The notes under the pieces: model-generated | What the model was told of the DNA's origin: nothing | The model's input: only the letters and a program-made list of their open reading frames with translations | Database searches by the model: none | Translations under genes and position numbers: made by a program | NCBI RefSeq assembly: GCF_024713975.1 | Contig: NC_091100.1 | Coordinates: 23,263,501 to 23,327,500 of the forward strand | Length of the DNA stretch: 64,000 nt | Direction of reading: 5' to 3' | DNA from: Paralichthys olivaceus | Taxonomy: Eukaryota > Chordata > Actinopteri > Pleuronectiformes > Paralichthyidae | In this document: piece by piece, positions 14,001 through 42,067 of the stretch | Layout: the number at the start of each line of letters is the position of its first letter | Position numbering within the stretch: position 1 is the first letter of the stretch

Positions 14001-14060
<60 letters not shown>

Positions 14061-16932: not shown

Positions 16933-17304
16933 TAGGGCTGCACAATATATCTCAAATTTACTGTCATCGCAATATCAACATGCGCGATATGCGTATCGCA
17001 AAAGACTGCTTGAACTGTGAGCAGAGGGAGGGTCAGTAAATCACTGACAGAGCTGGTAAAAATGTTTTTTTATGGTCCAAACATGTATGAAAAGACAGGG
17101 ATCATCCCTGTAAGTGGACTTAGTGGTGCTGTGCATGGCTGTGGCCAGGCTATGGTATGGTAATGGTAATATTAATGCTTTGAATCTTTTTCAGTGTCTG
17201 CATAGGTTACTCACTGTATGAGGTCTGTGTTAGCAGCGAACACAAAGCAGAAAGACTTAAACATGCATTTGTTTATTTATTGCAAGTCATATTGTGCAGC
17301 CCTA
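16933..17304. mobile_element. MITE with TAGGGCTGCACAATAT inverted ends
   Basis: The left end TAGGGCTGCACAATAT and right end ATATTGTGCAGCCCTA are perfect inverted repeats 372 bases apart. The interior has the ATCGCAATATCAACATGCGC segment common in fish copies of this family. It sits in the region where the dgke 3' UTR is expected. Flanking duplications are imperfect. Confidence 0.7.
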
Positions 17305-18739: not shown

Positions 18740-18803
18740 AAAAAAATTGTTGCCTATGCCCTCACCAATAGATGCCACTAAATCCTGCTCAACGAACCTT
18801 TAA
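18740..18803. mobile_element. MITE terminal fragment
   Basis: ACCAATAGATGCCACTAAATCCTGC followed by GAACCTTTAA matches the end type of the family at 38312 to 38659 (there GGTTCAGTGTGTAGATTTAG and GATCTATTGGCAG, reversed). Only the terminus is present. Confidence 0.4.
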
Positions 18804-19388
18804 TATATTTGAATGTTTACTTTGTAACTGTTAAATATCTAAAATAAGAGAATCTACAGGCTGATGAGAATGTGTAGAAAACATTTCATGATTTCATGTG
18901 TGCTATGACATGGCCTCATGAAGAGTAACGTGACCTCTACTAAACACAAATGAAAGTCCAGAGACAGTGTCTGGGAAATGAGACGCTTTTATTGCTAACA
19001 ATCATGTAAATCATAGATGTTTACAAAGATGGTATAAGAGTGTTTACTGAATTTGCTCAATCACAGATTTTGAACTGAATGTAATGAAGCAGTCTTTTGA
19101 GTTTGAAGACATTCCCATAAATATTTTCATATATAAGCCATGTGTGTCTGTGTTTTCATTAAATCAGATTTAAAGCCATCACATTGTTAGAATATGCTAC
19201 TCAACCTCTAACACTATATGTATATTTAACTTCACACAGAAAAAAAAACCAAACATACAACACAAAGCATAAAAGACATTAATCACAAAGGACAAAAAGA
19301 GAAAAAAGCCAGACTTTACAGAAATGATCTATTCTACAGCATTACAGCATATACTAATTAATCATTCAGTAAATAAAAAATAAAGCAT

Positions 19389-19871
19389 ATGGCGAGGAAT
19401 AGTGAGAATGGGTATCACGCAAAATTTGGGGTGTCCTTGGGGAAACTTAAGGTGCCTATAAATTGGTCCCCCAGTGCTCTCAGATCTTTCATGAAAACCT
19501 TTTCGCTGTGTTCCGAAGCCTCTCAAGATGTATCCCTGAAACCAGTTCCATTAGAGAAACAAGGATCACTGGTAGCTTTCCATTCGCTGAGTATTATTCT
19601 CTTTGCAGCTAACGTACCAAACATGAGGGTCTGTTGCACAGTATGTGGCAGTGCAGGAGAAGCTACAGAGCAGACAAACAACCACTGCGTCAGGTTCAAT
19701 AGTATTTTAGAATACTATTTAAAAATATGCTGCCAAGAGGGAACAATCTTAGGACAAGACCAAAAGGTGTGTCGTAGAAGATTTACATCTGTCACATACA
19801 TCAGATACATTAGGATACATTATAGACATGTTTTCTTTGGAATAATGTATCTAGGCATGACTTTCAATTGA
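19389..19871 (-). repeat. LINE (L1-like) ORF2 C-terminal fragment
   Basis: Read on the minus strand with stops and frame changes, the segment gives a SDVCDRCKS motif followed by a LFVCSVASPALPHTVQQTL and LAAKRIILSEWK pattern. This order (a Cys-x2-Cys motif, a tryptophan/helix region, then AK-x-x-I-x-x-x-WK) is the usual C-terminus of L1-type ORF2. The long plus-strand open frame over it has no recognisable similarity and is taken as its shadow. Confidence 0.5.
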
Positions 19872-19959
19872 ATTAACTGCAGCCTGGCATTAATTGAGCC
19901 CTAACGGATCCTCTCCATCGCCTCCCTCAACATCTTGTCGGTCAACTCATGATTCATGC

Positions 19960-20055
19960 ATCTTGATGGAAAAATATCTTATACATTTAGGAAACTGATT
20001 TGTATAAGTGTGATATTTGGTGCAGCTTGGGGACTGTTGGGCCTTGGTGGGGGTA
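19960..20055 (+). repeat. Partial copy of dispersed repeat (GGCCTTGGTGGAGGTA family)
   Basis: The text from TCTTGATGGAAAAATATC through GTTGGGCCTTGGTGGGGGTA matches the 3' half of copies at 26158-26487 and 56798-57150. Confidence 0.55.
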
Positions 20056-20288
20056 CACTATAGTGTAGTAGTATACAAACTAGAATAGCAAACAGTATAG
20101 TGACTATACTGTGTGGTTTGTTAAAGTAAGAAACAATTGGATCCAAAAAGCTGCAAATTGGACTTTGATTTCAACTACCACACTATATCAATCATCATGA
20201 ATGAATTAAATAAATACACCATGTTCCCACACAACAATCATCTCTCTCCATTATGTGAAGTAAAGCTTATAGAGCACTTTGTTTAAAC

Positions 20289-21074
20289 CACACGTTCTCA
20301 ACCATGTGTGGGCCTTGAGCGCCCTCTACAGGGCCGTGAAATGTTTTTTTATTTGATACTCGTGGGCCGCGACGGTCGCATACGTCATCAGCTTGAGACG
20401 CCCAGTGGACAGGTGAGCTAATGCTAACAGCTAATCGCTACATAATAGTGTTTGGAGTGATGGAAAAGTTCGACTTAACCCAACGCTACTAACACCAGAA
20501 AACCTCCCAGGTACAGCCCGGATGTGATTTCACACGAGGCGCTGAAGCCTTCCAAGCTAAAGCGGCATCTTGAGACCAGACACCCAACTCACCATGCCGG
20601 GAAGCCAGTCGACTTCTTCCAAAGGAAATGGACTCCAAACACAGAAAAGGTCTATGATCTCTTTGATTTCAAACTCCAAACTGTGCATTGAAAACCAGCT
20701 GCTTGGTCCTTGTTTGCTGTGGCTAATGAATCATACTGTTGGGTTGTACTTCATCAGATACTGTCAGTTCATATGAATATAGGATGTTGTGTGTTGCAGG
20801 TTTACATACACTTTTGTACAATAAATCCCTCTGGGCAGAGATATTGTTTTTTTGGCTTCTGTCACACCCATTTCATTTTTAAAGAACTGTGTTTGATGGC
20901 TTTTTTTCTGTAAAACAGGGAGTGGCTTTGATGTACATATTTACTACAATTAAGATATAACAAAGACTAGAATCAATTAGCCAAAAATAATAAGGTATAT
21001 ATGTGTTAATGGGCCCTGGATAACTACATGTATGAAAAGGTGGGCCTTAAAGTGAAAAAGGTTGACAACCCCTG
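20289..21074 (+). mobile_element. hAT-type DNA transposon remnant with BED-finger fragment
   Basis: The terminal repeats are CACACGTTCTCAACC on the left and, reversed, CAGGGGTTGTCAACC on the right. They are flanked by 8-base duplications GTTTAAAC (20281-20288) and GTTTAAGC (21075-21082), which differ at one base. Inside, the plus strand reads ALKPSKLKRHLETRHP and KPVDFFQRK in one frame, the BED zinc-finger C-terminal motif of hAT transposases. The rest of the transposase is deleted. It lies about 200 bases downstream of the stop of the left trim25-type gene on the other strand. Confidence 0.75.
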
Positions 21075-21281
21075 GTTTAAGCATTACATCAGTATCAATC
21101 CCTGTTGTCTGAATCAGTGAGTAATTTCCACATTTCTATGCTACAGCGAGGGAACGTGAGATGTGAGTACTACGACTGCAGAAGCAAATACATCTGCTGC
21201 TGCATCTAGTTAGACTGTTCATGGCGTGTAGTTGATTTCTCAGAAGGGGGATTGCTGTCGGGATCATCCTTCTCGGTGAAA

Positions 21282-24200
21282 TCAGATCAGGTCTGGCTTG
21301 TTTCCATCTGCAGATCCGGGTTGGTTTTTGTCTTCATCTGAAGAAAAATGTACAAATACTTTTGTAGTTTGCAGATCAAATCAATCTCACCAGATTCGAG
21401 TGTTCAAGAAATGTTTTCACTAAAAGTAAATCTAATTCTAAAGTTTAATTCTAGCACCAACACAAAAACTGAAATAAACCAAAAAAAATTAAAGCAACCC
21501 TAAATACTCACTGTCCAGATTTTTGTATGACAGGGTTAATTCCATATTTGATTGTACTGTATATCAGTGACAGCTGATTAATGTGCATGATTAAAAGATA
21601 ACATTTGTGAAATCAATTCTCCATAGAAAGTTTTCTAAAGAATATAAAGGTATTTTTAAGCTGCTTGCAGCTTTGACGTCCGATGTCGGGGTGGTGCAGG
21701 TGTTGTTTATGATCTTTGGATTCTTGATGAGCAGACCGTTCTACTGTGTGTATGGATCATGCACATGTACGTGTTGGACATGGGGTCTACTTCCTGAAAT
21801 AGTACTGCTTTGTAAATGGAGAACAAGATGCTGTGCTACATTTCAACTAGAGCGGCAACTGATGGAAAGAGAACAAGATCAGCTGGAGAGCAAGATCAGC
21901 TAGGTAACAATGTCAGAAAACAGTCTGTGGTGGGGTTGATTGATACATTGTCAGTGAACATACAGTAAATGTACTTGTGCCCAAGACTAGAGCTCCATCC
22001 TTACTCTCTCCTTTCCACAAGTGGACAGAGAGTGTGTTCGATCTGATTACGCCAGACCACATTCAGAGATCTATGTTCGGTCTCAGGACACCATTAAGCA
22101 AAAACTCTAATTTTTAAATCAAGCAAGGGCTACGTCACTGAAATATCTAGGGGGCGCTAGTGAGGCATCTTGGTACACCCGGGCCAAACAACCTCCTCAG
22201 ATTACACATAAACCTGATGCATTTGCTACATTTTACAGTGTGGTCATGTGAGCCCACCTTAGTTAAAATAAAAAAGGAAAGACAAAATATCTCAGGGAAG
22301 CTCCTTAAAACAGCTTTGTGATACTGAGAGTGACAAAGGTTGTGTTGGTTGTGTTCTCGAATCTTGGCAAATGAACGTTGCATCTCGTCTATAAGTCGTA
22401 ATGTAAACACTATAAATGCAGACTCTGCAGATCCAGGCTCTTGGCACAGACAACAGCAGCATCTGGACTCCACCAGGCAGCAGAGGTTTTGTAAACTGAA
22501 ATCTAAAGGCAAGTATACCAACTAACCCTCGGCCAATGGACTGTGCAAACTGTTTCAATAATTGTATTGTTTGCTTTAATGTATTCAGTCAAGACTTACA
22601 CTGTGTGAGTTAATTAAGCAAACTGAAACTAGTTGAATGTATCAGGATAACAAGCAAGAAGTTAAGAGTAAAGTGTACCCTCCTGTTATTTTTTCAGTGT
22701 AGTTGGTGTCTACCTGGTTTCTCACTGGGTTGAGGTGCAGCCGAAAAATCCAACTCCAACAGGTTTTCCATGGAATGGGCTTGCATCCTTTTCCCCGTCG
22801 TGTTTCGAGGTTTTCTGGTTCGGTCTGAAGGAGAAAAAAAGCAAAGTTTGTCTTACAGCTAGAGTATTTCTGTATAGCTTCATTTATTCATAAAAAAAAA
22901 CATGCAACAATAAATGACAAAGCAGCAGTTGTCAGGTATTTGAAAATAGATAAAAAGAACATGAGAATTTGTGCCCGAGCAGTCATTGACACTCCTCAAA
23001 CTCATCCTGGCTCTGATTGGTGGTTTAGACCAGGGAGCATTGAATTCTTCAAAATTGCATTACAAGCTGTAGGTGTAAGATCCTTTCTAATATTATCCAC
23101 CTCATGTACTGTCAGATCATCATATTTCAGCAGATAGGACAACAGATTTTTGTTAAGCTCCCCTCTTCCCCTTTAAAGTTTAGAAACAGTCACAAAGACG
23201 GTGTGGGTGTGGCTTCATCGGATTTGTCACCTGTCAGCACACCTCGATTCAGTTACTAAAATGATCAGTTAACGAAGAGTCATATTTTTTTCCAACTAAG
23301 CCCCACAAACTGCAAACCAGTGACAAATACTGTCAGGTGATGGATTCCACATGTAGTTAAGATGTGGTTACATCAATGAGAGATGTGTATAATAGAGGAT
23401 AAGGGTGCATGACCACAAAACTAGAATGGCACTCAGTGGAGTACCTCGGCCAAGGCCCAACAGTCCTTGTCCCCAGTCCCATTATGAAACCACTTTTAAA
23501 TTTACTACATCTAGATTTTGATGTGGATCTGCACCAAATTGGAAGCTCTTATAAATATCAGTACCCTCAACATGTCTGATTTTGTTTTAGATCAAGATCA
23601 ATTAATTATTATTGAGGAAAATGTTGAATTGAATGGGTTCTTCCCTGACCCACAGCACATCCTCCCACCAGGTTCTGTATTGGGTGTATAATTGCAGGTT
23701 TTTATCTGACTTACTTGTCTTTTGATGTTGATTTTGCGGAGCCCAGTTATAGCCTGTTGACATGCCATGTCCATACTGGGGTGAACTCCAGCCTGAGGGT
23801 GAGCCCATGTAGTTATAGCGAGGTACAGGATATGACGGGAATATGGGGTTGTGGGGCCTGGGAGGCTCTGGTGGAACTGAAACAAAACAGTCATTTTTTA
23901 CACTACAGGACATGATGCCCCCGAGCTTTAGTGGTCACAGTTATGGTGTATAGCTGCTTTTTAAATAGCAAAGACATTCTCTTTAATGTTTAAGTGCTGT
24001 ACATGATAAGACACATTTTTTCCTGTGATTTCATAACCGCCTCTGCATACAAATTTGAATTTAGATTTCTTTCTACAGTTCAGAGATGGAGATATCAGAA
24101 TTCTGGCTGGGGACTTAACCTTTGAATTGATGTCCATATTAACCACATGGCACTAAGTCACCCACATGCAGCAATACTGGGAAATAATTCGATTCATTAT

Positions 24201-27200
24201 TTTTATAATATTATTTGTACTTTCACAATGAACCTCCAAGTATAAAATGTCCCACTGAAAGTGTAACTTTTCTCTTTTCCCTCACCTGGTTTAATGATTG
24301 GTAGTCTGGCCTCAACAGGCTGTTTGAGGATCTCTGTCAGATGAAACTTCAATGCTCCAGCGAAGGTCTGAGTTAAAGTCACCTTCCTGGAGTCCAGGCT
24401 GACTCGAGGCTCATGAGGCTCAAACTTTACAACCTTTGGCAAGTCAAATGAAGCCTAAGAGGAGAAAGGTAATCAAGTTGTGCACAACATGACTGTGGCA
24501 GGTGTGAACAGCATGCCCTGCTCTTCTTTTTGATGGCACCACTGGGGGGTCAAAATCAAACCAGTTCAAATTATAGCTACAATGAACAATTCATTTCAAC
24601 TTTCTCAATTTACTGATGTGCTGATGAAAAGTAAATAGTGAAGTTTATTATGTCACCTGCAGAAATTTCAGGGTTTGGGAGCGACTCAGCTGACAGCTGA
24701 AATCTTCTTTGGCTTTTTTCATCTGTGCAGCGTTGTCAGTTAACTTCTTCATGAAATCCTCTAGTTTTGCCTGACCAATCTCCAGCTCGCGCTCCACCTG
24801 ATTTTGGGCCTTGCATTCCTCTTGTTCCAACATTTCCCGCATCTGCTGATACACAGCTGTCAATGCCTTCCTTTTTTTGGCTGCAGCATTCTTGGGCAAG
24901 GAAACAGAGACAAGCAAACAGATGGAAAGACAAACTGACATTATTGGGGATAACAATGCCTCTGATACAGACAAAAATACCACATCAGACATCAGGGAGT
25001 ACACAGATCTGTTCTGATCCAATACCAAGTCTTTAGAGTGTATTAGTTACACCCAGATAAAGCTGCAAGTTTCTTTTCCCAGAAATCACTTCTTCACTAC
25101 GGTGACGTGTAACATATGCATGATTATACTGCGATGAAATCGAATGCGACGCAAGTTTAATAAACGCCCTGCGTGATTCACACTGCGGGATCCTTTGTGT
25201 TTATTTGCGTTAATCGTGCAAACCGCATCACTTGAATGAATGTTGTTTCCAGCGCTACCTGAGGCTGACCAGTGACCGGTTTGATCACCCTTTAACTCGG
25301 GTCAGTGCCAGGACTGAGTCCGGTTAGTTTCATTCTCAGCTCTCACAGGTCTCAGCGACACGAAAGTTCAAATATTTCGACTCCAGTGTTGGACGTGAAT
25401 GATACGATACGCAAGATATTTCATACTCATGTCTAATCGCATCTTTGCATTGATTTTGTATGTAATCACAACACATGACAAATTCTCATCACATTTGGTG
25501 TAAATGTGTATTGCTTGATTTCTTTTATTTATCTGTTCTTTCTCAGTTTTGACTAACTAGATACAAATAAGGTTCTATGGCATTCCTTCTCTGTATTGTT
25601 GTTCAAAGGTTTTAACCTGAGCCAAGCCAACAATGACAGCATCACTTCCATACAGGGTGAATAGCATGCAGCTGTTAAAATGTGTTCTATAAGTTTTGAT
25701 AGTTTTATGTAATGCACTGGTATTGGAACAGAACTCAGTATCAGGAAGGTAAAAATCTCTGGACATCATCACCATTTTTCCATTTGAAACAAATAACTCA
25801 TTTGTTTCCTCTCGGTGAGGTAGTGAGTAAAAATTACCTTCAGCTTGCTGTGCATTTTGTTCGTCTGAGACAAAACAGTCTCAGTTGTCTTGATCTTCCC
25901 GTCCAGCAAACCCAACTTGTCCATGAGTTCAGACTGCAGAGACAGAAATAAAACCTTTCAGGTAGAGTCCTTCTATGTAAATAAACAATGCTGAAGATTT
26001 AAAGATCCTGTTCAGGGTAGCATTAGATATGCTAATGATTATGTGGGTAACTGGATAATACAATTTGAATAAATGAATAGTGACATAATTGTTTAGTATT
26101 ATAATCCTGAATGACTCAAAGATAAGGAACTGATTTCTCTCTTGTATTGTCCATGTACCCCTGTCCGACTCCGTCTGTTGGTTGGTTGGTTTGGTTTGTA
26201 AGCAAGATTACACAAAAACAATAAAAGATTATCACAAAACATAGTGGAAGGATGTGGTATGGGTCAGGAAAGAACTCGTTAGATTTCTGGTGTGGATCCG
26301 GAACAGGGGGAAGATCCAGGATTTACAATTCACTCTCTTTAACATTGCAAGATAGGGTTTTTTTTTTTTAACATTTCACCATTTTCTCAGGGAATAATTC
26401 ATGGATCTAGAATTGATGAAAAACATCAGGCACATTGGACTCTTGGGCCTTGGTGGAGGTATGCCCTCTACTGAGTGCCATTCTAGTGTTGAGTTTAGAT
26501 TTTAATGTTCTAGTTGTTAGTTACTCATTTCCTTAACATATAGATTAGTTTGAGCTGGTAGACACCTTTATGCACTAGTTTGAAATTTGGAAATAACATA
26601 AAAAACCGAAATAGTGAATATCTGTATTTGAACCCTTATGGTCAAACCAGCCACCCCTAAATTAGGAGTGTATTCTGGAAATTATTAACACGTTAAGTAG
26701 AAAATATGTTAGTTGTGTCCCTTATGAATGAAACTTTCTAAAATGTGAGGAATTTATTTTATTCATTTTGATTTTAGGTTAAATAATATAATTGATACAT
26801 ATGATTTAAAAATAACCAACTTCATAATCAACCATTTGTGGAGTGTAATGTAGAGTTTTTCCAAATTAAAAGGAGCAAATTTGGAGCACGAAATGACTTG
26901 ATTTCTAACTATCCTGTAAAATCAAATCTGACAGTGACAGAGATTGTAATTCAACACTGCTCTGACTGTATACATTCTTAAATGTAGCTTTTCACTGTAT
27001 CAATGAGGAGAAAGCAAAGCACATCATGAGTCTGATTCAACTCCAAATTTCAGCAGGCAGCATCTACTAAGTTTAATAATTAACACGCTCTATCTGGTAA
27101 GTGAACAGAGCCAAGTGTTCGTCAGACTCAGGGCCACTGGCCCCGTGGTGAAATCTGACTGGCTCCTTAAGTGCACCTGTCCTGTCAATAGTCTTTTTAA

Positions 27201-28035
27201 AGTGCTCTTCTGAAGAACACATTTGCTCGAAGAAGGAACAATTTTCAAAATGATGTGTGGCTTCAATCAAAGCTATAGAGCTTACAATAAACAAAGAAGA
27301 AATTAAATATGCATCTTACTGGATCAGGAATTGTGCACTGTTGTTGGACGGATAATTAGACCCTGTTTAAATTGTGCCCCCCCCCCAGACTCTGAGTGAC
27401 AAGGTGACGCAGACCTCTTTGAGCTGCCTCTGCTCCTCAGGAGAAGTGAAGGAGCAGCCTTTGTGGTCTTTCTGGAGACAGAGGCTGCAGATGGGGCGGA
27501 CGTGCTGGCTGCAGAAGAGCTCCATCAGCTTGTGGTGGTCCGGGCAGAAGCGCTCCGACAGGTCCCCGACTGGCTCAATCAGCTGGTGGGGACGGAACAC
27601 CGGGTTCTCCCGGTGAGGACGCAGGTGCTCCTCACAGAAAGAGGCCATGCAGGTGAGGCAGGTGTGGGCCGCCTCTGCATCCATACAAGTGTCACAACGT
27701 ATGACTGCATCTTCATTGGCCTCTTTCTCGGTCTCCTTCTCGGTCTCTTTCTCCTCTGCTGGCAGGCCCACCTCGCTCCGGACCAACCTCAGGTTTAAGG
27801 TCTCCACCACGGTGCTGAGGACCGTGTTTTTCTTCAGCTCGGGTTTGGTGGGGAAGAGGGTCCGACACTGGGGACACCTGTAGATCTCCGTCCAGGTGGA
27901 GAGCAGGCAGCTCTGGCAGAAGTTGTGTCCGCAGGGGATGGTCACCGGACAGTCAAAGGGGCTGAGACAGATGCTGCAGGTCAGCTCATCCTCCAGACTC
28001 ATGAGAGACAAGTCACACTGCTCCACCGCGGCCAT
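21282..28035 (-). CDS. trim25: TRIM25-type RING/B-box/coiled-coil protein lacking SPRY, 482 aa
   Basis: TRIM25 proteins are RING E3 ubiquitin ligases of antiviral RIG-I signalling. Minus-strand exons: 27415-28035, 25838-25933, 24657-24890, 24286-24454, 23715-23876, 22714-22824 and 21282-21337. All phases agree. RING Cys/His residues are at 20 to 57, B-boxes at about 115 to 200, coiled coil at 208 to 317, then a conserved block ending in KQPVEARLPIIKPV. Exon 5 (residues 374 to 427) is rich in Pro, Tyr, Gly and Ser (SYPVPRYNYMGSP, TGYNWAPQ). The last exon ends DGNKPDLI and TGA, and no PRY/SPRY exon follows before dgke. The first exon is almost identical to that of the neighbouring copy. An acceptor-like tttctccctgcag lies 18 bases before the ATG, so a non-coding first exon is likely. 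The product could be a regulator or a decoy ligase; that is inference. It could also be an early pseudogene, but no internal stop or frameshift is seen. Confidence 0.85.
23421..23600 (-). repeat. Partial dispersed repeat, minus orientation
   Basis: Begins CTAGAATGGCACTCAGTGGAGTACCTCGGCCAAGGCCCAACAGT read in short segments, the reverse of the 3' end of the family seen at 26158-26487. It lies in the intron before exon 6 of the left trim25-type gene. Confidence 0.55.
26158..26487 (+). repeat. Dispersed teleost repeat, near-complete copy
   Basis: It runs from a GTTGGTTGGTTGGTTTG-like start, through GGTATGGGTCAGGAAAGAAC and TGTGGATCCGGA, to CTACTGAGTGCCATTCTAGT. The same order of blocks occurs at 56798-57150. 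It lies in intron 1 of the left trim25-type gene, antisense to it. No coding capacity. Confidence 0.65.
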
Positions 28036-28075
28036 GACGACAGTCCACAGCCGCTGCAGGGAGAAACGAAACTTA
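27407..28075 (-). repeat. Near-identical 669-bp segment, left copy (pairs with 40516-41184)
   Basis: This covers the whole RING/B-box exon, about 40 bases before the ATG and 8 bases past the donor. It matches 40516-41184 without gaps at 664 of 669 bases by hand count. Outside these limits the two loci cannot be aligned by eye. Confidence 0.9.
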
Positions 28076-29169
28076 TGAGTGTGTTTAGAATCAACACCAC
28101 GCCCTTTTTATATGCTCACATAAACGCAGTAATTCTTGTTACTGATCCACACAAGGCAACGTAATCGTCTCATGATATTTTTCCCCGGTAGTAGGGAACA
28201 CTTTACTGTCCACATCATGGAGAACCGTCGTGTAATTAAAGATTATAATTAGCATTAGAAATCTGATAAATGAGCAGCAAGATTTCACAACAACATCCCG
28301 TAAAATCCCCAATTTCGCATTATTAAAAAAGGCACACGTAGTAATTCAGGTGTCCATTAATACTGTATCTTCAAAAACGATCCAGTGAGTTATCCAAGTT
28401 TTAAAAGAACAGTTTGTTATTGACATTAACATATCTATTCCTGGAACTCTCACTTACCTTTAGTGCTAATGCAGATCACTCCACCTCATAGGTACACAGT
28501 AGTCAGGCAGTCAGCAGGCACCATAGATTGGATATCTTGTGACTACTGACCACAGTCTGTGCTACTGACCAAACCTGTGTAGGCGTGTCTGTCTGTTACG
28601 CAAACACTTCCAGATTAAAGACCAGCCCATATTGTCCAATAGGGAAAAAGAAGCAGTGTCAAGTTTAGGGTTAGATTAAGGTTAAGGTAGAGGTTAGGGT
28701 GTAGGGTAGTAGTGGTTGTATTAGAGTCTAAGTCCCTAGGAAATGGGAAATGGTCTGTATTTATAGAACTCTTTTATAGTCTTGATGACCACTCAAATCC
28801 CTTTTTCCATCACACATTCATGCATCCATACAGCAACCCTCCGCAGCACTTTATCAGACATCACTCACACACTGCCAATGCTGTTGTAGTACATATTATA
28901 TTATGATCATGTTTGTAGGAAATTCCCACACGAGTTGAAGTACACACTTTTATTTTGAAAAGTGCGGATCGCCACTTCCTTCGTGACGGCTGTTTTGTTC
29001 CTTAGCTATTGTGGAATTCATGTTAATTTGTTCTTTCGTAGTTATGTCAGCAAAGAGGTTGCGTATTATATTAAGTGTATGTGGGGTAAAATAGTAGAGT
29101 ATTGCCGGAAGTAGTGCGGGCGTTTTATTTTGAAAACTTTACCGTGCTTCCGCGAGAATCACTTCCTCT
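28076..29169. other. Upstream region of left trim25-type gene
   Basis: The promoter and any non-coding first exon of the minus-strand gene at 21282-28035 should be here. I see no clear TATA box or interferon element. A degenerate GGTTAGGG-like stretch at about 28664 to 28712 is noted but not called. Confidence 0.4.
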
Positions 29170-29800
29170 TTGCTTCAGCCTTTCCTTGAGGAGGTGTTGA
29201 TCATACAGTATTCACATGAAAGACACTGTGAACACGTTGTCTCCACGTTTCCAGATGCTGTGGTTGTGATAAATCGTTGGGAGATACTGAATACCTTGGA
29301 GTGTGTCTTTGTCTCACTCACAACACAACGCAGGGTTAGAGACACTGAACCAACACAGCTGTCAGGGACAATGTGGTGATGGAGAGGAGAACTTTGTCCA
29401 AAGTAAGGACAATATTGGACTTTCCGCCACACCCTCTCCATAATGTCTTGATTAGCCTCTGCAGCTCGTTCAGTGGCAGACTCATCCACCCACGCTGCTC
29501 GACAGAACGCCACAGGAAATCATTCCTGCCTGTGGCTGTCAAATTGTGTAATGACAACATGTGAATAAGCTTAAACATGTATACTGTGTATTCTTTAACT
29601 TACATTCATGTACAAATGTAAATCTATACATACCTGGGTTTTATTTCTACATATGTATATCTTTTATTTTCATTTTAGTCTTACCTGACTTTTTTATCAC
29701 TATGTTCATACCTGCTTTTGCTCTTTAACCTCTTCTCAGGAGCTCTGTGACGTTTGAATTTCCCTACGGGTATTAATAAAGTACTTCTGATTCTGATAAA
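29170..29800 (+). repeat. LINE 3' end (L2/Maui type)
   Basis: The plus strand encodes FSGRLIHPRCSTERHRKSFL then VAVKLCNDNM, the typical C-terminus of fish L2-like reverse transcriptase ORFs. About 200 bases later comes the tail TTTCCCTACGGGTATTAATAAAGTACTTCTGATTCTGAT. The element is truncated at its 5' end. Confidence 0.65.
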
Positions 29801-30725
29801 GTATTTAAATATAAAGAGCTCATTCTAGGGTAAAGAAAACAATTTGTACAATTTAGGTCATTACACAAACTTATTTTATATTCAATTTCCCTTTAAGGGT
29901 CCAGTCAAAACATTCACAAAAATAACACTAATAGAAACCTACTGCTTGTGACTCATGCAATTCGGAAGAATCCAACGCTTCTATTTCTAAACCACAAATA
30001 AAAGCCAGGTGGCATTTCTCCAAACCCTGTTTTTCTGGTTGCTGCGATTACTTGCCTCCTCTGAGGTGTATGAGTGGTAAATGGAGGGGGGGAGGAGGCT
30101 TTGGAGACGGTGTAGGAGGGGCCTGGATGTTGTATCTGTTGTCTACTTTCCTGCTGTTGGAAAGTATTAATACACTTTGAATAAACAGACATGCAGCACT
30201 CTGTAGCAGCGATGGCTCAGGCTCTACAACAGCAACAACTGATTCTCCAATTTTGGGTTTTGTGTTCTGAGTTGAATTCCACTGAACTTTGAATAAACAG
30301 GCTAACAGCTCTCTGTGCAGCAGCTTCAGAGTCCTGCAGCTGGCCTTTATGCTGCAGCTCAATTACTGCAGGTCCCTTTTTCAGTTTCAGAAGGAAACCT
30401 GCAGCCAGCATCACTACAGGCCAAACAGTCCATTACAAACAGACAGGTTTAGAACAGACACTGCTCCAGTTCATTCAAATTCTCATGTCTCCTCCACTCC
30501 TCCTCTCTATCATCAGTACAGGTGGTTTTATATAAACCACGGTAGGTTTACACACGAGGAGCCCCGATTTCAGATATTTTGTTGCACACTACTTAAACTG
30601 ATCATTTCGGTGAATCACATTTTTTTGACTGAACATTCATGTTGACTGTAGATACGGAGCAAAACATACTTCCTAAAATGTTGTAGTGATCCTTAAATCA
30701 CTTAATAAAAAGGAAAAGACCATCT
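29801..30725. repeat. Repeat-rich spacer with internal duplicated motif
   Basis: At 29801 to 29925 is a MITE-like scrap (AAATATAAAG, TTCTAGGGTAAAGAAAACAA). Further right, the motif CTTTGAATAAACAG followed by a GCAGC-bearing stretch occurs twice, near 30172 and 30285, about 113 bases apart. This suggests a short tandem duplication in an old element. No coding exon is seen. Confidence 0.4.
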
Positions 30726-30741
30726 TAGAGAGAAAAGAACA

Positions 30742-30747
30742 TTTATT
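30742..30747 (-). terminator. trim25: Possible poly(A) signal of trim25 (right copy)
   Basis: TTTATT on the plus strand, AATAAA on the minus strand, about 3.1 kb past the stop at 33878. The intervening 30750 to 33877 has no exons and is taken as a long 3' UTR. Nearer signals may also be used. Confidence 0.35.
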
Positions 30748-33700
30748 CATTTGTAACACAAATTTTAATAAAAGTAAATATGCAATTCAATTTTTGCATT
30801 TTAAGACATAACTATATTTAATCCGACTCCTGTTGGTCCACTTAATCAAATCAGCACAAATATGATTTGTTGTCAATGAACCTGGACTTAACATTTACCC
30901 GTTTCACAGACAGCGAGCACAGGGAAATTAAACATACAAGGATTACAGAAAGGCTGATTCAGTGTCGACTCAAAGTGTGTGCTATTTAAAGTCATGTCCA
31001 GTACACTCGAACACACGCTGCAAACATAAGCCCCTCGATTCTGCTGAGCCCCAACAACCATGTTATATTGTTTAAGCTTGGTCCTACGTGTCAACACAAT
31101 AGGAGTTGAGGACTCAGTACAATGTGGTAAAGCTCTTCATAGGTTGTCAAGGCTATCTGTACCATTGTGAAGTCATGCTACAGCAAACAGTACAGTGAGT
31201 CATGGAGCCTTTAATGTGGGCAAGTGACCCAACAAATAAAGGTCCATACCTCACAGATCTTTTCGATTGACCAACAGTGAACTGACTGATTCATTACAGT
31301 GGCCATCATATCTGAACCTTGGCTCACTTATCAGTTCAATAACTCTGGACAATTCAAACGTCTGTACCTATTTAGTGCAGAGAAGTTAGTACTTGGCTGA
31401 ACCATGTTCAAACCTTACTGTTCAAGTGCTGCAGTAATGCTGTGTATGTAGATGTCTCCTGCTGATACCACTTGTACTTTCACATCATTTAGCATCAACA
31501 GGATGAACGAGCTTTGATTTTAAGTGATCTGTGTGCACACTGGCCAAACACTTGTGACACATCAGACAACGAGCCACTAAATGTCACCAGTGTTTCAGGA
31601 CACACTTTTAATCGGCCAGGGTAAACTTTGTCTACATCCATGATACTATGTTTGTTTAAACACAGCACTTTTCAAACTAAAACAATCTCTGTCCACAAGC
31701 GTTTTGGCCCCAGCATCAGTTTTACTCTCCATCCATGCCAACATGCCTGTAAACGCATATCACGTTACCACTCGTGTACACTTGGCATGTATGTGCAGGT
31801 TTACACAGGAATTGCTTCAATAACAACTTCTCTCCGATGCATGTAAGCAGACGTCCGACTGTGAACTGGAGAATTTCACTGCACATCAGCTGTTAGCAGC
31901 AACAACAGTCACCAACAGTTATAATTGATTATCCATGTTGCATTCTACATTGGTAGCTGATGCTGGTTATTTCTCATGGAAGGGGGTTGTGTGATAGGAG
32001 ACCGACACATCAGCGAAGGCTACATCATGCGCGAAAGCCCCGATCAGCAAGCGGTTGTGAGAGTCTCCACTTCCACCCATCCAAATTAAAACACCATGCT
32101 GGAGTTTTGAAACTAACACAGGGCCAGCAACATTTCCAAACTTGTGTTTTGGCAGCTTTAACACTAGAGCAGTGTGGAAGCCAGATGTATCCATAACAGA
32201 GTTGAGGCGTTTTCAAACAACATAGTAGTATGGATGAAGCCTTTAAATAAACCCCCCAAACATGTCAGCCCTGTGAATCTGAGCATCTTACCACCTCCCT
32301 GCCACATAAAGAAAAGCCAACAGCATTCTGATGTGCCTACCACAAATCAGTTTAGCACTTTATTTCCATAGAGTATACATCCCAAGTTTAAATCTGAACA
32401 AGGACCATTGCTGAACATCCCCTCCTCTCTCATTATTTCTTAAATCAAACTCCACCAATGAAAGGAACCTGCCATTAAAACAAATGAAACCCACAGGAAA
32501 GAGAGACTGTCAGGACATAAAACCAGAGCCTATGTGACTTCTGGTCTCATCAACCAAACAAGTCAGAGTTGAAGAGGTGGGCAGATAGAGCTGGGTCATA
32601 CAATATATCCACAACACATCTTAACTTTAACTAAATGGGTACGATGAAAAAAAAAAAAAAAGAGATGAAAATCAACCACTTTGATATGCTGCCTTTAGAT
32701 GGCTTGGGTACATTGGTTCTCATCACAGAACCAGCCTTTTCTATCCAGTCACATGAAAGACCTATGGAAGACATGCTCACAAATAGAGTCTAACACACAT
32801 GCTGTGCTGCTTTCAGTTGACAGAATCAATACATGAGTGCTCTTTCAGAAGAAGCTGAAAGTGTCAGCAAAGATAGTGAAAGCCACAGCAAAAACATTAC
32901 CTAACATGCAGGATTTGTAAGTATTTTTACTGACAAGATTTAACCTTTATTATTATTTCCTATTTTGCAGTCCACATAGATCTTTGTCATTTTCACAAAC
33001 TGAATCCTTACAGTCAATAGAAAAGACTCAAAATATCGACTGATAGGAAAAAGAGTGTCATAAAACCCAGACCTAGAACTTAAATTGCCTCAGTCCAAAA
33101 CTATGGTACTTCTTTCACCTGCAGACTTAATTCCACAACACTGGACTGACATGTGTGATGAATTCAGTTCTCTATTCATCACCACTCTACAGTGTATAAT
33201 AACTAGTCAGCACTGTTGACACAGGACACAAACACACTGTACAGCAGGTGCACAGTAAGTTGTGTGTTCTGTTATACTAGTAGGAAACACTTAAGTGCAT
33301 TAGTCACCTGGGACTCAGGACATGCAAGTTATACTGAATCAATCTGATGTATCTTAACCCGACAAAGACAGACACTCTGCCAGTTTAGAACCAAAACTTC
33401 AGCTGGTGTAGCTTTTGGTAACAGCTAATGACTTCAGCTATGGTATGCTATTGACTCCACACATCCACTTGAGTTGTGATACTCCAAGTTCTGTACACTA
33501 ATATTTGTAGAGTAACCACAAGCATATATTCCTGTATTTCCTTCATTGGAAGCAGAGCTAACCACAGTGTGTAATAAGAGTGAAGCTAATCATCCTGTAA
33601 CCTTAAAATCACCCAAAGAATACAATGTCTCAATGGTTCGACTTTTAAGTTCGGACGCTTTTGAAGCTTGTCGGCCTCTTACATTTGCTTTCTCTAATAT

Positions 33701-33781
33701 TTACTTTAACATACATTTATATACAAACCTTTTAACGAAATTATTGTAATATTCATATTTATCAGTGACATCAAGGGGCTG

Positions 33782-33857
<76 letters not shown>
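33782..33857. repeat. (TG)n microsatellite, 76 bp, in trim25 3' UTR
   Basis: A perfect TG run begins about 20 bases beyond the trim25 stop codon. In the transcript it reads (CA)38, the class of sequence bound by hnRNP L. Confidence 0.95.
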
Positions 33858-33858
<1 letters not shown>

Positions 33859-33877
33859 TGATATGACAATATGCTCC

Positions 33878-36800
33878 TCATGCCTGCATCTTGCACAAAG
33901 AAATAGATGAACCACTGGAGAACATCCAGAAAGCTGGATACACTGCTTCAGCAAAAGGGAACTCAAATGAGTAGAAGGGATATGCCCTGTCTGCCACATT
34001 GTAGAATGTAGCCCTGCCCCCCTCCCAATCTAACAGCACACCTACGCGCTTTGGACTGGGATTGCTCAGCACGGTTTCCTGGCTGTTATGCCAAGCAGAC
34101 AGCTTGACGTTAAACCACTCAACACACCAGGACTGGGCGTTGCGGCCCAGGCGACTGGCGGGACCTTTACGGTCAATGCTGCTGTAAGCCAAGCCTATGC
34201 CGATGAAGTTGTTGCAGCTCAGTCGGACTTCCCAGTAGTGGCGCCCTCCCAAGAAACCCTTGGAGGTGAGTACTTGGGAGCAGACGACAAAACGTTGAGG
34301 GCAGTTGGGGTAGTTTGCTTGGTCATCTGACACAGAGGCCTTAGTAAATGCCTCACTCAGCGTGATGCGTTTGTGGGCGGTCTTTGGATCCAGCATGAGT
34401 GCCTCGGCATCTAAAAAGAAAGAAAAAAATAAAACATTCAACCATCAAATAAGGTTGCTACTGCCAAATGACAGAAAGATACCTACTACATTCATAAACT
34501 TACATTTCAGAAGCTCAGTTCTTTTTTCGGCACATGCAAGGTTTGCAGGAATGCTTGAAGTATCTACACCAGATGAAGACAAAAATTCAGTTGTTTTAGA
34601 ATAATCACCTTGCAGTTACAAAGTTACAATCAAAACATTTCCATTTGAAAATGCATCAACTCTGCTACAGATACACTCTACTGGAGTTGCTAAAATGGAG
34701 AAGTTTGAAAACCCTGCGGCTGCGATTTAGTCTTGACGAGGGGTCTTTTCGTCTATGAATGTACAACTTTTCTGAAAAGCCTTTCGAGTTGTCATCAAAA
34801 CTAGAAAATGTTCCATATAAATACAGAACATTTGCCATATGCGTTTTCAGCCATGTTAGTAGGTAACGTAGAAGTATAGATATAGCCTTAGACTTCTTTC
34901 ATATGTGACTGACCTTTGACCACCATAATCTAATCTGTCCGAGTGAATATATCTACCAAATGTTGAAGTTGGTGGGCCTAATTCTGCATGAAGCCACAAA
35001 TACAGTATATCAGGATGTGCAGATAGAAGTGAGATCAGCAGACCTCACACTCTCATCTCTGAAGCTAGAGGCTCAAGGTTATTTTAGCCACTATCATTAT
35101 TAGTAGCATAACACACTCAAATCTCAAGACAGATTTCTTGGCAGTGGGTTGCATTGTGGTTAATGTGAGTACCAGCTTTTCACAAGGATAATAAATGATG
35201 TCCAGTTCTACTGCTTTAATTTTGATCCTTCATCAACTTCCATCATGAGTTCAAAGTTCATAAGAACTCAACGGAAGTCGGTGGAGAATTTTTTTTTGCA
35301 AAAAAACTAAAGAAAATACAAATGCCATCTCCAGATGCTACTATTGATGTGTTTTTATTCAGTGTAGAGGGTGTCTACCTGGTTTCTGATTGGGTTGTGG
35401 ACGTCCTTTGGCTTTCCCACCAAACTCCCCGGACAGATTTTCAGTCGAATGGGTAAAATCTTCAGTGGATTGAGCTTTTTTGGTTTGTTCTGAAGCAGAC
35501 AAAAAAAGTTGTCTTCTAGTGCAGGTGAATGTATTTTCAGAGCTGTTAATGGCTCTGAATACTTGGGTTTCAAAGGTGGAGTATTTGTTTATGGCAGTGG
35601 TCACCAACCTATCGATCTTCACTGTCAATCCCTGTAAGTCTCTGGACTCACTGGCTGCGGTTGCGCCGCAGACCAGATGTGTGTCAGATGTCTGTTGTTC
35701 ACACAGATAGACTGCTACCGGCAGCAGAGCTGCTAGTTTATCACCTGCATTTCCTTTAATTCGAGTTGGATTATGTACTAAACTGTAAATGTCAGGACAA
35801 TACAGTATAAAGACCTGCATCTTCTGGTCTGTCCATAACAATCCAAGCCCCATTAGAACAAATTAATGGATTTAGAAAGTAAAACGCTGGAGCCTTTAAT
35901 AGAAATTGTAAAAATAATAAATATGACCGTCCTAAGTGGGTTTTTTGGAAGATATAAGGGTGCTAGATCTCGGCTTATGTTTAGAATTAAAAATTGATCT
36001 TGGGCTCGAAAAGGTTGGTGACCACTTTAGCTTCAATTATTCATGAAGAAAATAACAGTCAAGGTTAAAGTAAAAAAATAAATAAATAAATAAGAATATT
36101 TGTGTTTTGAGATCTTGAATTAACTTCCCTCTATTACACTTCAAAACAAAAGCATTACAACCTTCATGGACATGTTTATTTTCTTTGTACGAATTAGTAG
36201 GTGTAGCTAACGAACTAGTTTCTGAGTTCATCTCATCTATCAGTCAGTTAAAAGAACTTTTTCTTACTTGAAGGCTTCTTCTTAGGGCCTGCTTTAGGCT
36301 GTGAACTTGGATCTTGACTTGGGGACTTGGGGCGTCCTAGAGGCTCTAACAGAAGAAGAGAAAGAGCTTAATGAAAGTGCATTTTGTTTTTGAACCATCA
36401 GTTGTCTTGTGTCATACAACTCTTGACACCCATCATAGAATATGTGCTGGGAAGATGAACATGCCAGGTTCCTTGAAAGGTCCCAGGGGGAGAGATGAAA
36501 ACCCTGAGGCAGAAGCTGTTCTAGTACCTGAAATTATGAGAGAACAGTGTCAATATGACTGTCTTTCACTTTATTTGTGTCCAAATGGCTTTAAACAGCT
36601 ACCCTGATATCCAACCCCCACACAATTGGTCCAATTTTAGGAACTAGTGACTGTGCTTTTGTAGATTAAAAAAAAAATTGTCACTGCACATCCCAGGGTT
36701 CTCAGTAAAACACCCACCAACTTTGACTTTGGTTGGATGAGCGGTTGTTGACTAAATTAAATTGGAGATGGACACATTTCTGAACCTGTCAAATTATAAA

Positions 36801-39800
36801 TATCTAACAAACAATACGATTGTTTCGATTAAATTAATGTCAGTGTTAATTTCTGCAACTAAGCTGTACACAACTGAGTTCAGTCTACTTTCTAAATGCA
36901 ACTGCATACGTACCTGGTTTAATCACTTGCAGTCTGGCCTCAACAGGCTGTTTAAACAGCTCGGTCAGGTGCTCCTTTAAGGTCACAGCAAAGGCCTCGC
37001 TGGCTATCACCTTCTTGGAGTCCAGGCTAATTCGAGGGGTGTAAGGGTCAAAGTTCACAGCTGCAGGCAGGTTAAATGACACCTGTGAGAAGAAGAACAC
37101 AATGTGGTTTTCTTTGATGGTCCAAGCTTTTCTTCAAATTGGACAAGATGAAGCTATATTATTTTATAGTGTGGAAAATGGCCTGGGTTGGAATTCATAC
37201 ACGCAACAATATATGAAACTGAGGGTTTCCTTCAGCTGTTTGACAAAATGTCTGTACAATGGGGTCTGCCACTATCTATGGAGTTTGTCTTTTACACATT
37301 AAAGAATGCAGCAGATTTTCCATTCAGTCGCATTCACAATAACAAGAATCTAAGGTGAGTAGGAAGTAGGATAGAGGAAGTAGGCAGGATTTCATGAATC
37401 TATTCTGCAGCAGAAATCACAAGCTTTTGCTCACAGCATATCAACAGGCGTCGGTCCTCATCACCAAAAATAATGTGTACAGATAGTGTGTTAGAGGAGA
37501 AGAAAGGTTCCTTTTATTGTTTTATCTGGAGCAACAACTGGCAGTTTATGGTCAGACTCATCATATATATTAGTCTGAAATTGGCTACTCTGCACTTTTG
37601 TAACTTTAAGTACGTACTGATTAGGGCTTGGTATCGGCACTGATTGCACAACTTAATTTGATTCAGATTCACAAGATATTGATATGTCACTATTTTCGGA
37701 ATTTGTGATAAATGGTATTATTGTCATCATTTTCAAATAATTTATGCGTGTGTGTAAACTCCACCTCACTCTGTCTGAGGAGTCTGGGAGCACATATACA
37801 AATTCACGCTTACTCCTGTTTTTTCATGTGATGGCCTATACAATGACAATTTAAAAAAAAGAAATTAATAATAAATAAAAACGGTCAGGAGCCCTAGGTA
37901 ACACATAGCAGTGTGTGGGCATCATGTTGGCTTTCACTGTCATTGTCTGGTATGCAGCTGTGTGGATCGTCTCACCTGCAAGAAGGCCATTGTTTGCGAC
38001 CGACTAAGCAGACTGTTGATAGAATCTTTAGCCATGCCCATTTTCTCGATGTTCTCAGTGAACTTCTTCATGAGAACTTTCAATTTGGTTTCACCAGTCT
38101 CCACCTCTCGATCCACTGCATTCAGAGCAATGTTCTCCTCTTGAGTCAACATGTCGTGCATCTGTTGATACTCGACTGCCAAAGCTTTCTTCCTGTTGGC
38201 TGCTGAGACCTAGAGAGGACCAAGATAGGATTCATGAACAGATCAGTAAGAAAGGAGGTCAAAACAGTGGTCAGACAAATTGAGGGGAATGCATATTCCA
38301 TATTTTTAATTAAAAGGTTCAGTGTGTAGATTTAGGTGAAAGGGATCTATTGGCAGAAATTGAATATAAAATAATCTGAATGTTGTTGTTTTTTTTTACC
38401 ATAGAATGAACCCTGTATATAAATACTTACATATATATAATATTTACATTGGGAGCGGGTCCTCTCTATGGAGGCCGCCATGTTTTTTCTTGTTTTTTTA
38501 CAGTAGCCCAGACTGGACAAACTGACCATCTTTTGAGTTTTGATGACAACTGAAAGCTACCACAGGTTCTCTGTCATGTTTGGAAGGGGAGGGTGAGGTG
38601 AGGGGTATTCAGCTGCAACATGCAAATACACCTCTAGCTTCGACACATTGCCCCTTTATGTGAGAAGAGTCATCAAACTCATGTTTATAGTTTTATATTA
38701 CTGTAGATGCAATAACTCCTGAGAAGAAACCAGGTCGCTTCTGCGCTTAATATTTACAGGCCTATTTCAAATCTCACAATCATAGACAAGGTTATGGAGA
38801 AAGTGGTAAAAAAGCCAGATCTATAACTACTTGAACACAAATGTTTTTTGTTAATACCACATTACTGAAACTTTAATACTCCAATACTTACTCTTTTTAG
38901 TAGTAAAAATACTTCCATTTGGGAACCAAGACAGAAGGTTGCAACTTGGTGCCTACATAGAGTCTCGAGCATTTAAGACTTTAACCCATGCTAACAATCT
39001 GTTATTTTGAATACAGATCTTAATTTCTGTGACCACATAAAAGCTTAAATGAAATCTGTATTTGGACATCTCAAAACCATAGCTAAGGTTAGAGCTTTTG
39101 TGGCTAAACAGACATATAGAGTAATCATGCCTTTTTATGCTCCAGACTTTACATTGCAATGCTCTTCTCACTTCCCAAAACCACCACGAGAAAGCTGCAA
39201 CTGATTCAGACTGTTGTTGCTATTGTTCTGCATAAAACAAAAGAGAGCATATTACTCAAATGTTCAGGTCTGTTCGCTGGCCTCCAGTTAACTACAGGTC
39301 TGAATCTACAAGTCTTAATCAAAAGACATTAAATGCTCAGGGCCCTGAGCTCTGTTCCTGAAATAGTAGCTGTTTATAGGCCTAAAAGGTGTCTCAGACC
39401 TGCAGGAGCTGGTCAGCTAGAGTTAAATAGGGGAATGTTGCATGAGGAATATGCTGCCTCCTGCTGGAACAAGCTCCCAATGGCTATCAAGTCTGCCCCA
39501 AGCATGTCCTGCTTTAAAAAGGTTGTCAAACAAAGCTCTATTTTCCAATCAAAATCACCTAACTCTGTACATAAATTATACATTATCTGCTTTATCATTG
39601 GGTCTTTTTTGTAATGTTTTACAACTTTTAACGTTTTTTAAGCTTCTGTTTTGTCCTTTTATGCTTCTTTTATTTCTTTTAAAGTACATTGAATGAAAGA
39701 ATCTGAATATTTTTTTTAAAGAGAAATGTTAAGAAATGTTAGCTTTTTTTATTCAAAGTATAACAAACTTACTAAATTTAACTTGCAAAAACTTGCTGAA

Positions 39801-41144
39801 CAGAGGTGTTTGGTCAACAAAGAATTTCACCAAGATAAAATATAGTCTATAGTTAAACAAATACTGGAGTTTTGAAGGTAACAAACATACATTATTTGTT
39901 AACAGCCCTTTAAAAGGTAATCAAGTTGAATAAAATCTGACAGCATTTGCTTTAGAAACAAAGACAATGTAACTATCCACTCTTTTGGACAATAAGGATG
40001 AATTTTTACAGGTAACTGTTTGTAAAATATGGGGCCAGTAAATTTCAAAACAAACTTACCTTCAACATATCCTCCATGTCCCTCATTTTAACTGTAATGG
40101 TCTCAGTGTGCAAAATCTTTGCATCAAGGAAAGCCAACTTGTCCCTCAGGTCCGACTACAAACAGAAAAACATTATATATTTATTTGACCCACAAATACA
40201 GTTCAAAGTGTCACTTTCTACTCATGGATTATTAGGTTCAGCACAAACTTTATAGTGTTAACTGAGTTGTCAATTTTCAGAATGTGGGTTTTGCTTTAAA
40301 AAGGGACTAGAATATTATTCGATATGAGAAATTTTGAGTGAGGCAGATACTTGCAACAAGTTGACCTGATTTCCTTCAATTTTGTGAGCTCAACAAGCTT
40401 AACTTTATCGAATCAAAATGTGTGTGTATATGGGCTATACATATCAAATCTGTTGAAGGATGGATTAAGGTAGGTAGAGTGGTCCTTTAAACTCCCCACG
40501 GGGACAGTGAGACACACGCAGACCTCTTTGAGCTGCCTCTGCTCCTCAGGAGAAGTGAAGGAGCAGCCTTTGTGGACTTGCTGGAGACAGAGGCTGCAGA
40601 TGGGGCGGACGTGCTGGCTGCAGAAGAGCTCCATCAGCTTGTGGTGGTCCGGGCAGATGCGCTCCGACAGGTCCCCGACTGGCTCAATCAGCTGGTGGGG
40701 ACGGAACACCGGGTTCTCCCGGTGAGGACGCAGGTGCTCCTCGCAGAAAGAGGCCATGCAGGTGAGGCAGGTGTGGGCCGCCTCTGCATCCATACAAGTG
40801 TCACAACGTATGACTGCATCTTCATTGGCCTCTTTCTCGGTCTCCTTCTCGGTCTCTTTCTTCTCTGCTGGCAGGCCCACCTCGCTCCGGACCAACCTCA
40901 GGTTTAAGGTCTCCACCACGGTGCTGAGGACCGTGTTTTTCTTCAGCTCGGGTTTGGTGGGGAAGAGGGTCCGACACTGGGGACACCTGTAGATCTCCGT
41001 CCAGGTGGAGAGCAGGCAGCTCTGGCAGAAGTTGTGTCCGCAGGGGATGGTCACCGGACAGTCAAAGGGGCTGAGACAGATGCTGCAGGTCAGCTCATCC
41101 TCCAGACTCATGAGAGACAAGTCACACTGCTCCACCGCGGCCAT
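33878..41144 (-). CDS. trim25: E3 ubiquitin ligase TRIM25, full length, 613 aa
   Basis: This copy has the complete TRIM25 layout. Minus-strand exons: 40524-41144, 40060-40155, 37976-38209, 36914-37082, 36268-36345, 35379-35489 and 33878-34410. All phases agree. RING is at residues 20 to 57 (CSIC, CGHNFC, CPQC), B-boxes about 115 to 200, coiled coil 208 to 317, a basic linker, then PRY/SPRY about 440 to 613 with SRLGRNAQSWCVEWFN, LSAWHN and YPAFWMFSSG, which match human TRIM25 closely. The family ubiquitinates RIG-I and binds RNA; it is interferon-induced in vertebrates and cytosolic. The linker KAGPKKKPSKQTKK has seven lysines, recalling the RNA-binding 7K motif of the human protein. Length is near the human 630 residues. 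The B-box has Val where the left copy has Asp (LCLQQVHKGC), beside a likely zinc-binding His. Intron 2 carries a LINE remnant and a MITE. Confidence 0.95.
38312..38659. mobile_element. MITE, near-complete copy in trim25 intron 2
   Basis: The left end GGTTCAGTGTGTAGATTTAGG and the reversed right end GGGGCAATGTGTCGAAG form imperfect inverted termini about 350 bases apart. The interior includes GAGGCCGCCATGTTTTTT and CAGCTGCAACATGCAA. A partial copy is in dgke intron 6. Confidence 0.65.
38730..39715 (+). repeat. LINE ORF2 remnant in trim25 intron 2
   Basis: The plus strand has RPISNLTIIDKVMEKVV near 38757, a reverse transcriptase palm motif, and further on KRCLRPAGAGQLELNR and CWNKLPMAIKSAPS, the C-terminal signature of CR1/L2/Rex-type LINEs. 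It ends with a simple GAATGAAAGAATCTGAATA tail near 39705. Several stops and frameshifts show it is dead. It is antisense to trim25. Confidence 0.65.
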
Positions 41145-41184
41145 GACGACAGTCCACAGCCGCTGCAGGGAGAAACGAAACTTA
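40516..41184 (-). repeat. Near-identical 669-bp segment, right copy
   Basis: Partner of 27407-28075. Five substitutions separate the two, of which four alter the protein (Glu/Lys, Phe/Ile, Lys/Gln, Asp/Val) and one is silent. No gaps. Confidence 0.9.
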
Positions 41185-41197
41185 ACTTGAGGAGCGA

Positions 41198-41209
41198 GAA
41201 AACGAAAGT
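41198..41209 (+). promoter_or_regulatory. Possible IRF/ISRE-type site upstream of trim25
   Basis: GAAAACGAAAGT fits the IRF consensus GAAANNGAAA and lies 54 bases upstream of the trim25 start codon, just beyond the segment shared by the two copies. The left copy lacks it. Interferon induction of TRIM25 is known in vertebrates. If the ATG exon is preceded by an intron, this site would be intronic. Confidence 0.35.
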
Positions 41210-42067
41210 AAAGACGCTCAAATTCAAATATAATCTGAGTAACGACTGCTTCTTTTTAGCTCGGTGCATTTTTACAAACAACAGTGTTCAATGTCGACAA
41301 ACATTCAGCGCGACGTCGAGACCGGCGTTCAATTAGTTATTTACACATTCGAATACACGGAACTCAGCGAGTCCAAAGCCACGGTGTATTTATAATGAAT
41401 GTCCCACGATGGTCTTTACCTTTATTTCTCAGATGTGCAGCGGGTCCAGGAGAAACAGTCCACAACAAGCTACTGACGTTGCTTCCAACCAGCTGCGCGA
41501 AATGAGACGGTGGATTTCAGCGGTGCCAAGCGCAATGACGCAGCAGCAATATGGAGCAGTCACACCCATTCACTCTGGGTTGTGTGTGGGGGAAGTACCT
41601 TATTTATTATTATTAAAAGGTTTTATCATTGCTATTATTCATCGCCTGAAAGATATTTTATATTACGAGTCAAATGATATATAAATGATCTAATTATACC
41701 AGATATTATGTCTGCAGAAGTGGCTAACCCCTTTTCCTGGTTGGGTGGTTTCTTCCAAAATGTTTGAGGAACAGAGATGATGCCTCTATCAGCCAACATG
41801 CCTGCCACTTTTAAAGTGGTAGTTCACAGAAAAATAAAAAATCCCCCATTATCTACTCACTTTTATATACAGTCTACTCACATGTGTAATGGGGTCAATC
41901 CTTAATAAAAAGGTTAAGTTAAAACAGGATATTTTTAGCGGTGTTATTTCCCCAGTTATGCTTATGTTATTTTAGATATAAAAACACAGCTCTAATTTAC
42001 CTGACAGGACGGCGATGCCTATAGGATGCGGGGAGTCGGCGAAGGTTATTTAAGGACGCCGTAGTCG

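Follow-up and report, generated by a model that had tools for sequence, protein, structure and literature searches.

We find that two tandem trim25 genes in a fish genome share a nearly identical RING and B-box exon (664 of 669 bases, 99.3%, with no gaps), and that their other exons are strongly diverged. With a probability of roughly 0.8, we attribute this pattern to a recent gene conversion, limited by homology, through which old tandem trim25 paralogues came to share the RING/B-box exon. The analysis covered a window of 64,000 nucleotides (positions 23263501-23327500 of contig C8) in a genome of 588 Mb in 25 contigs, and followed up a first-pass annotation that had proposed exon-limited conversion at this locus.

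Results

Both genes lie on the minus strand. Gene B, the 40-kb copy, is modeled as exon 1 with the RING and B-box (40524-41144), exon 2 of 96 bases (40060-40155), exon 3 of 234 bases with the coiled-coil region (37976-38209), the linker exons 4 and 5 of 169 and 111 bases (36914-37082 and 35379-35489), and exon 6 with PRY/SPRY and the stop codon (33878-34410). The spliced model encodes a complete 587-residue TRIM25 in which Pfam recognizes the RING and B-box of exon 1 and the PRY and SPRY of exon 6, and its best solved relative in the PDB is human TRIM25 (4cfg, E=2.4e-114). Gene A, the 27-kb copy on the side of a neighboring kinase gene, has the corresponding exon 1 of 207 codons (27415-28035), in which Pfam likewise finds the RING and B-box, followed by exon 2 (25838-25933), exon 3 (24657-24890) and the linker exons 4 (24286-24454) and 5 (22714-22824). 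Exon 1 of gene A alone matches human TRIM25 first (4cfg, E=3.1e-46), and exons 2-5 alone have no TRIM match in the PDB at E 0.01. Both genes are trim25, a fish antiviral ubiquitin-ligase gene. The interval originally assigned to the conversion, 27407-41184, does take in exon 1 of gene A but omits the other exons of that gene, which lie at 22714-25933.

The kinase gene is recognized by DAGK_cat and DAGK_acc domains on the plus strand at ~11.3-14.0 kb, tail to tail with gene A. From its position we infer that this diacylglycerol kinase is of the epsilon type (DGKE); linkage of TRIM25 to DGKE is described in fish and human (PMC10300353). Membership of the finTRIM family was considered and rejected, as the linker exons here are 169 and 111 bases long, and those that precede B30.2 in zebrafish finTRIM measure 154 and 60 bases (PMC2657112). 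Beyond the kinase gene, an open frame at 10-879 encodes a CBX7_C polycomb motif and a long histidine run.

The two genes are not equivalent at their 3' ends. A tblastn search of the window with the gene B SPRY returned nothing credible besides itself (next match E=2.3), Pfam identified no domain at E 0.01 in the three minus-strand frames of 11001-22700, and in a genome-wide PRY search, in which the best 150 of 157 candidates were scored, the gene B PRY was the sole one in this window. By these searches gene A is without a detectable PRY/SPRY exon, and the pair does not consist of two equal full-length genes with diverged binding regions, as had been supposed. Beyond exon 5, gene A could either read through to a stop after GRHQLH or splice to a predicted short last coding exon (21282-21337, minus strand), a candidate that has the right splice phase and ends in a stop. 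Around the exon 5 donor, the two genes are 86.5% alike along 52 bases (22684-22735 in gene A, 35350-35400 in gene B); this similarity reaches ~30 bases into intron 5, where the position of an in-frame stop is common to both, and in gene B this stop is overlapped by an AATAAA. Together, the common stop position and the gene B AATAAA suggest a SPRY-less isoform, which may be older than the duplication and may now be the sole product of gene A. The region 20500-22760 of gene A contains no AATAAA and two ATTAAA. If gene A is expressed, it probably yields a TRIM25 without SPRY, which would modify the complete protein, compete with it or act on other partners.

The near-identical block occupies 27407-28075 in gene A and 40516-41184 in gene B, both on the minus strand. 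The first-pass annotation had described a gap-free match of 664/669 bases with edges about 8 bases past the donor and about 40 bases before the ATG, and these figures proved exact: the 5' edge precedes the ATG (28035 in A, 41144 in B) by 40 bases, and coding exon 1 (621 bases, 616 of them identical) ends at 27415 and 40524, 8 bases short of the 3' edge. This identity is not due to chance. In 10,000 permutations the GENECONV-like score never exceeded 164, compared with 596 for the block (P<1e-4), and the longest identical run never exceeded 89 bases, compared with the 282 observed. When the whole genome was searched at the DNA level with block A and its flanks, the best 40 of 69 candidates being scored, no third full copy was found; these 40 matches comprised blocks A and B, one 101-base match on C21 at 77% and 37 hits on a dispersed repeat. 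The repeat lies in intron 1 of gene A (27206-27381; 78% match elsewhere over query positions 32-207), starts ~25 bases past block A and holds all 37 matches within its first ~80 bases. A search for relatives in viral contigs produced 14 stretches that fit a pattern, none of which encoded a relative.

Outside the block the picture is entirely different. As noted before, exons 2-5 have exactly the same lengths in the two genes (96, 234, 169 and 111 bases) and are strongly diverged, with ungapped identities of 59/96, 155/234, 121/169 and 50/111 (45-72%); the exon 5 proteins align only with gaps despite equal exon length, so that the value of 45% understates the similarity of this exon. Without exon 1, an alignment of the two proteins over 207 columns shows 50% identity. 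Exon 1 has a silent divergence of 0.008 (one silent change among 134 silent sites), and exons 2, 3, 4 and 5 have values of 1.17, 1.41, 0.75 and 0.90. The divergence of exons 2-5 excludes a uniform recent duplication of the whole gene, in agreement with the earlier assessment. Exons 2-4 look constrained in this pair because their dN (0.27-0.44) is below silent divergence; the exon 5 value of 1.05 is unreliable owing to the gapped alignment. For flanks of 60, 120, 250 and 500 bases on each side of the block, 22-174 of 300 dinucleotide shuffles reached the observed alignment score, the lowest count (22/300) belonging to the 250 bases downstream. The scores of introns 1-3 (43, 32 and 29) were below the best of 40 shuffles (46, 50 and 45), and that of intron 4 (48) was slightly above it (45). 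Thus, little or no homology appears to be left in the flanks and introns outside the block. Separately, a pair of 144-base repeats that are 85% identical, one in the kinase gene region (12745-12888) and one in intron 2 of gene B (38494-38637), is probably a dispersed element.

A gene conversion tract is characterized by sharp edges next to diverged flanks and by an identity that greatly exceeds that of the remaining gene, also at silent sites. The block shows both features, and together with the permutation result they support the proposed exon-limited conversion between the tandem genes. We suggest that an old tandem duplication gave rise to the two trim25 genes and that a double-strand break in exon 1 of one copy was later repaired from the other, ~13 kb away and in the same orientation. 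Repair would have copied the sole long stretch that still aligned, with the tract ending close to the exon edges, and the conversion would be recent, or recurrent with a recent last event. Since homology stops at the block edges, a repair tract would have had no room to extend, and the restriction to one exon needs no selection. As a result, the catalytic module would be identical in origin in both genes but preceded by different upstream sequence, and followed in gene B by the coiled coil and SPRY and in gene A by a diverged coiled coil with no SPRY found. Conversion between exons that would otherwise be perhaps 70-77% identical is inefficient, and it follows that the event was a rare one unless the exon had been kept similar by earlier conversions.

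Five differences separate the two exons 1, reading from A to B as E95K, a silent change at C134, F163I, K189Q and D190V. None falls inside the RING match (residues 20-57). The first 322 bases of the block are identical and all five differences are confined to the last 347 of 669 (P=0.038), a clustering that hints, weakly, at more than one event. Human TRIM25 and TRIM paralogues polarize the five differences inconsistently, and we therefore name no donor. So few differences in 669 bases imply that the event was recent; if fish sequence changes at several substitutions per billion sites per year, the conversion would have an age on the scale of a million years.

These differences also bear on whether sameness of the module has been selected. 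Four of the five alter the protein, and the data thus do not support a present constraint that keeps the two modules the same. The first-pass annotation had suggested that conversion could preserve common E2 use or heterodimer activity; with the differences predominantly nonsynonymous, the data do not support this idea, and the loss of homology explains the exon limit by itself. A more far-reaching reading is ongoing, selected concerted evolution, in which an identical RING/B-box is supplied to a full TRIM25 and to a SPRY-less TRIM25 under a separate promoter, as an effector and modulator pair whose catalytic part is unable to drift apart. We regard this as unlikely, if still worth considering.

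A doubtful alternative is that the RING exon was lost in A or B and replaced by an inserted copy of the other gene's exon together with its splice edges. The block does resemble a self-contained cassette of acceptor-like pyrimidine-rich sequence, exon and donor, with little or no homology beyond it. Yet such an event needs both a prior loss and an insertion that ends no more than ~40 bases from the coding exon on either side and also fits in place, orientation and phase. The genes agree in the order, lengths and phases of their exons, and exon 1 accordingly occupies the position expected of its own homologue. By eye we found no target-site duplication, and a tblastn search of the window detected no remnant of an older RING exon (next match E=0.28).

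That a single exon sequence was written into both places during assembly or polishing is quite improbable. The dispersed repeats beside the block in intron 1 of gene A could have invited such a fault, with gap-filling copying a known exon, but the two copies differ by five scattered substitutions with no gaps and an intact frame in both, their flanks differ, the gene B flanks match only themselves in the genome, and the window contains no N. A collapse, which the initial reading had named together with misassembly as the main artefact, would delete a copy and not yield a hybrid with boundaries at exon edges. Exon insertion and an assembly fault, both of low probability, would require more coincidences than conversion.

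The RING exons of neighboring TRIM genes in three other clusters (L039 on C15, L040/L041 on C22 and L042 on C16) are at most 77% identical among the listed stretches of at least 100 bases, indicating that exons of this kind do not stay frozen by nature. That the exon DNA was held by extreme purifying selection, without exchange since the duplication, is close to untenable: the zinc ligands of the RING and B-box are constrained, but the identity extends to silent sites, the 40 untranslated bases and non-consensus intronic bases on the donor side, most of the differences alter amino acids, and the RING exons of other TRIM neighbors in this genome are less conserved. The clusters compared were four, these three and a family on C5, drawn from 132 PRY matches in the genome. 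The PRY-bearing C5 family (L001, L004, L005 and L043-L045) is 97-99% identical over kilobases and its copies contain repeats of ~137-156 bases; it looks like a recent whole duplication, with identity over kilobases and not over one exon.

The sequence upstream of the block differs between the genes. In gene A, the motif TATAAAAA (28105-28112, minus strand), which we take to be a TATA-like box, lies ~30 bases 5' of the block and is a possible candidate for a promoter of its own. In gene B, a pattern scan identified TTTCGTTTTCTC (41196-41207, minus strand), presumably an interferon-response-like element, 11 bases 5' of the block and outside it. At its 5' edge the block has a pyrimidine-rich stretch and CTGCAG, which together look like an acceptor. 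An upstream non-coding exon may precede the block, with the acceptor-like start speaking for it and the TATA-like box of gene A against it.

Between 20001 and 48000, the only 500-base bin with GC above 0.48 and a CpG observed/expected ratio above 0.6 is 41001-41500 (ratio 0.92), which covers a portion of exon 1 of gene B together with sequence 5' of it. In species without functional PRDM9, recombination is described as concentrating at promoter-like features (PMC5519329), and promoter-like hotspots could favor exon 1, depending on PRDM9. A search for the PRDM9 SSXRD domain returned no match, and the controls were likewise without a match. GC-biased conversion was also considered. Exon 1 has a GC3 of 0.80, above that of exons 2-5 (0.33-0.72), but the four of ten other TRIM matches compared had values of 0.79 (L022), 0.74 (L033), 0.63 (L026) and 0.57 (L027), the stretches of L026 and L027 extending into the coiled coil; L031, L023, L024, L028, L029 and L037 were dropped because the wrong strand had been taken. 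With GC3 as high as 0.79 elsewhere, the value in exon 1 is not special, and we rejected this candidate.

Discussion

Exon-limited conversion is known from Mx genes and conversion of a 5' part from IFIT1, and the trim25 pair, read as conversion, is therefore a further case. In mammals other than rodents, conversion between MxA and MxB is largely limited to a region in the catalytic part, and in human coding exon 2 is homogenized (PMC4687636). The resemblance is close, since both systems involve neighboring interferon-induced paralogues with exon-limited conversion in the catalytic part; however, the Mx pattern recurs across many species whereas the trim25 pattern comes from one genome, and here the converted exon encodes the RING and B-box of a ubiquitin ligase and one partner is without a SPRY. 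The same study weighs tolerated against favored conversion (PMC4687636). In cat and ferret, the 5' parts of IFIT1 and IFIT1B are 97-98% identical and the 3' parts 62-63% (PMC4887208). The IFIT1/IFIT1B boundary falls within the gene sequence at a structural pivot, unlike the trim25 block, both of whose boundaries are at exon edges.

Within the TRIM family, one breakpoint in young primate TRIM genes is placed between the RING and B-box2 (PMC3228819), and for the rodent Trim5 clusters the choice between conversion and repeated duplication is left undecided (PMC6677749). Zebrafish trim25like and other class V TRIMs have lost their C-terminal domain (PMC3137616); trim25like thus resembles gene A as a trim25 relative without this domain, a likeness by domain content. 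None of the titles and abstract openings screened on TRIM and trim25 conversion, for the most part outside subscription journals, reports gene conversion in trim25.

If the exon exchange recurs in fish with a trim25 pair, whole-gene trim25 trees would be misleading there. The pair would then also be a natural chimera, with the same RING and B-boxes joined to different coiled coils, with and without a SPRY, and would allow a direct test of which part sets the antiviral target of TRIM25.

A trim25 pair as such is already known in other fish, as a TRIM25a/TRIM25b pair has been described in stickleback on the chromosome group of DGK (PMC10300353). The stickleback arrangement is like the one reported here, with the pair next to DGK, whereas in lumpfish TRIM25b is placed on another chromosome and complete domains are stated for TRIM25a only. 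The available sections of that paper do not mention trim25 conversion, and their sole use of the term is in the title of a reference on TLR1. The lumpfish TRIM25a and TRIM25b have near-consecutive Ensembl gene numbers and yet are assigned there to different chromosomes (PMC10300353).
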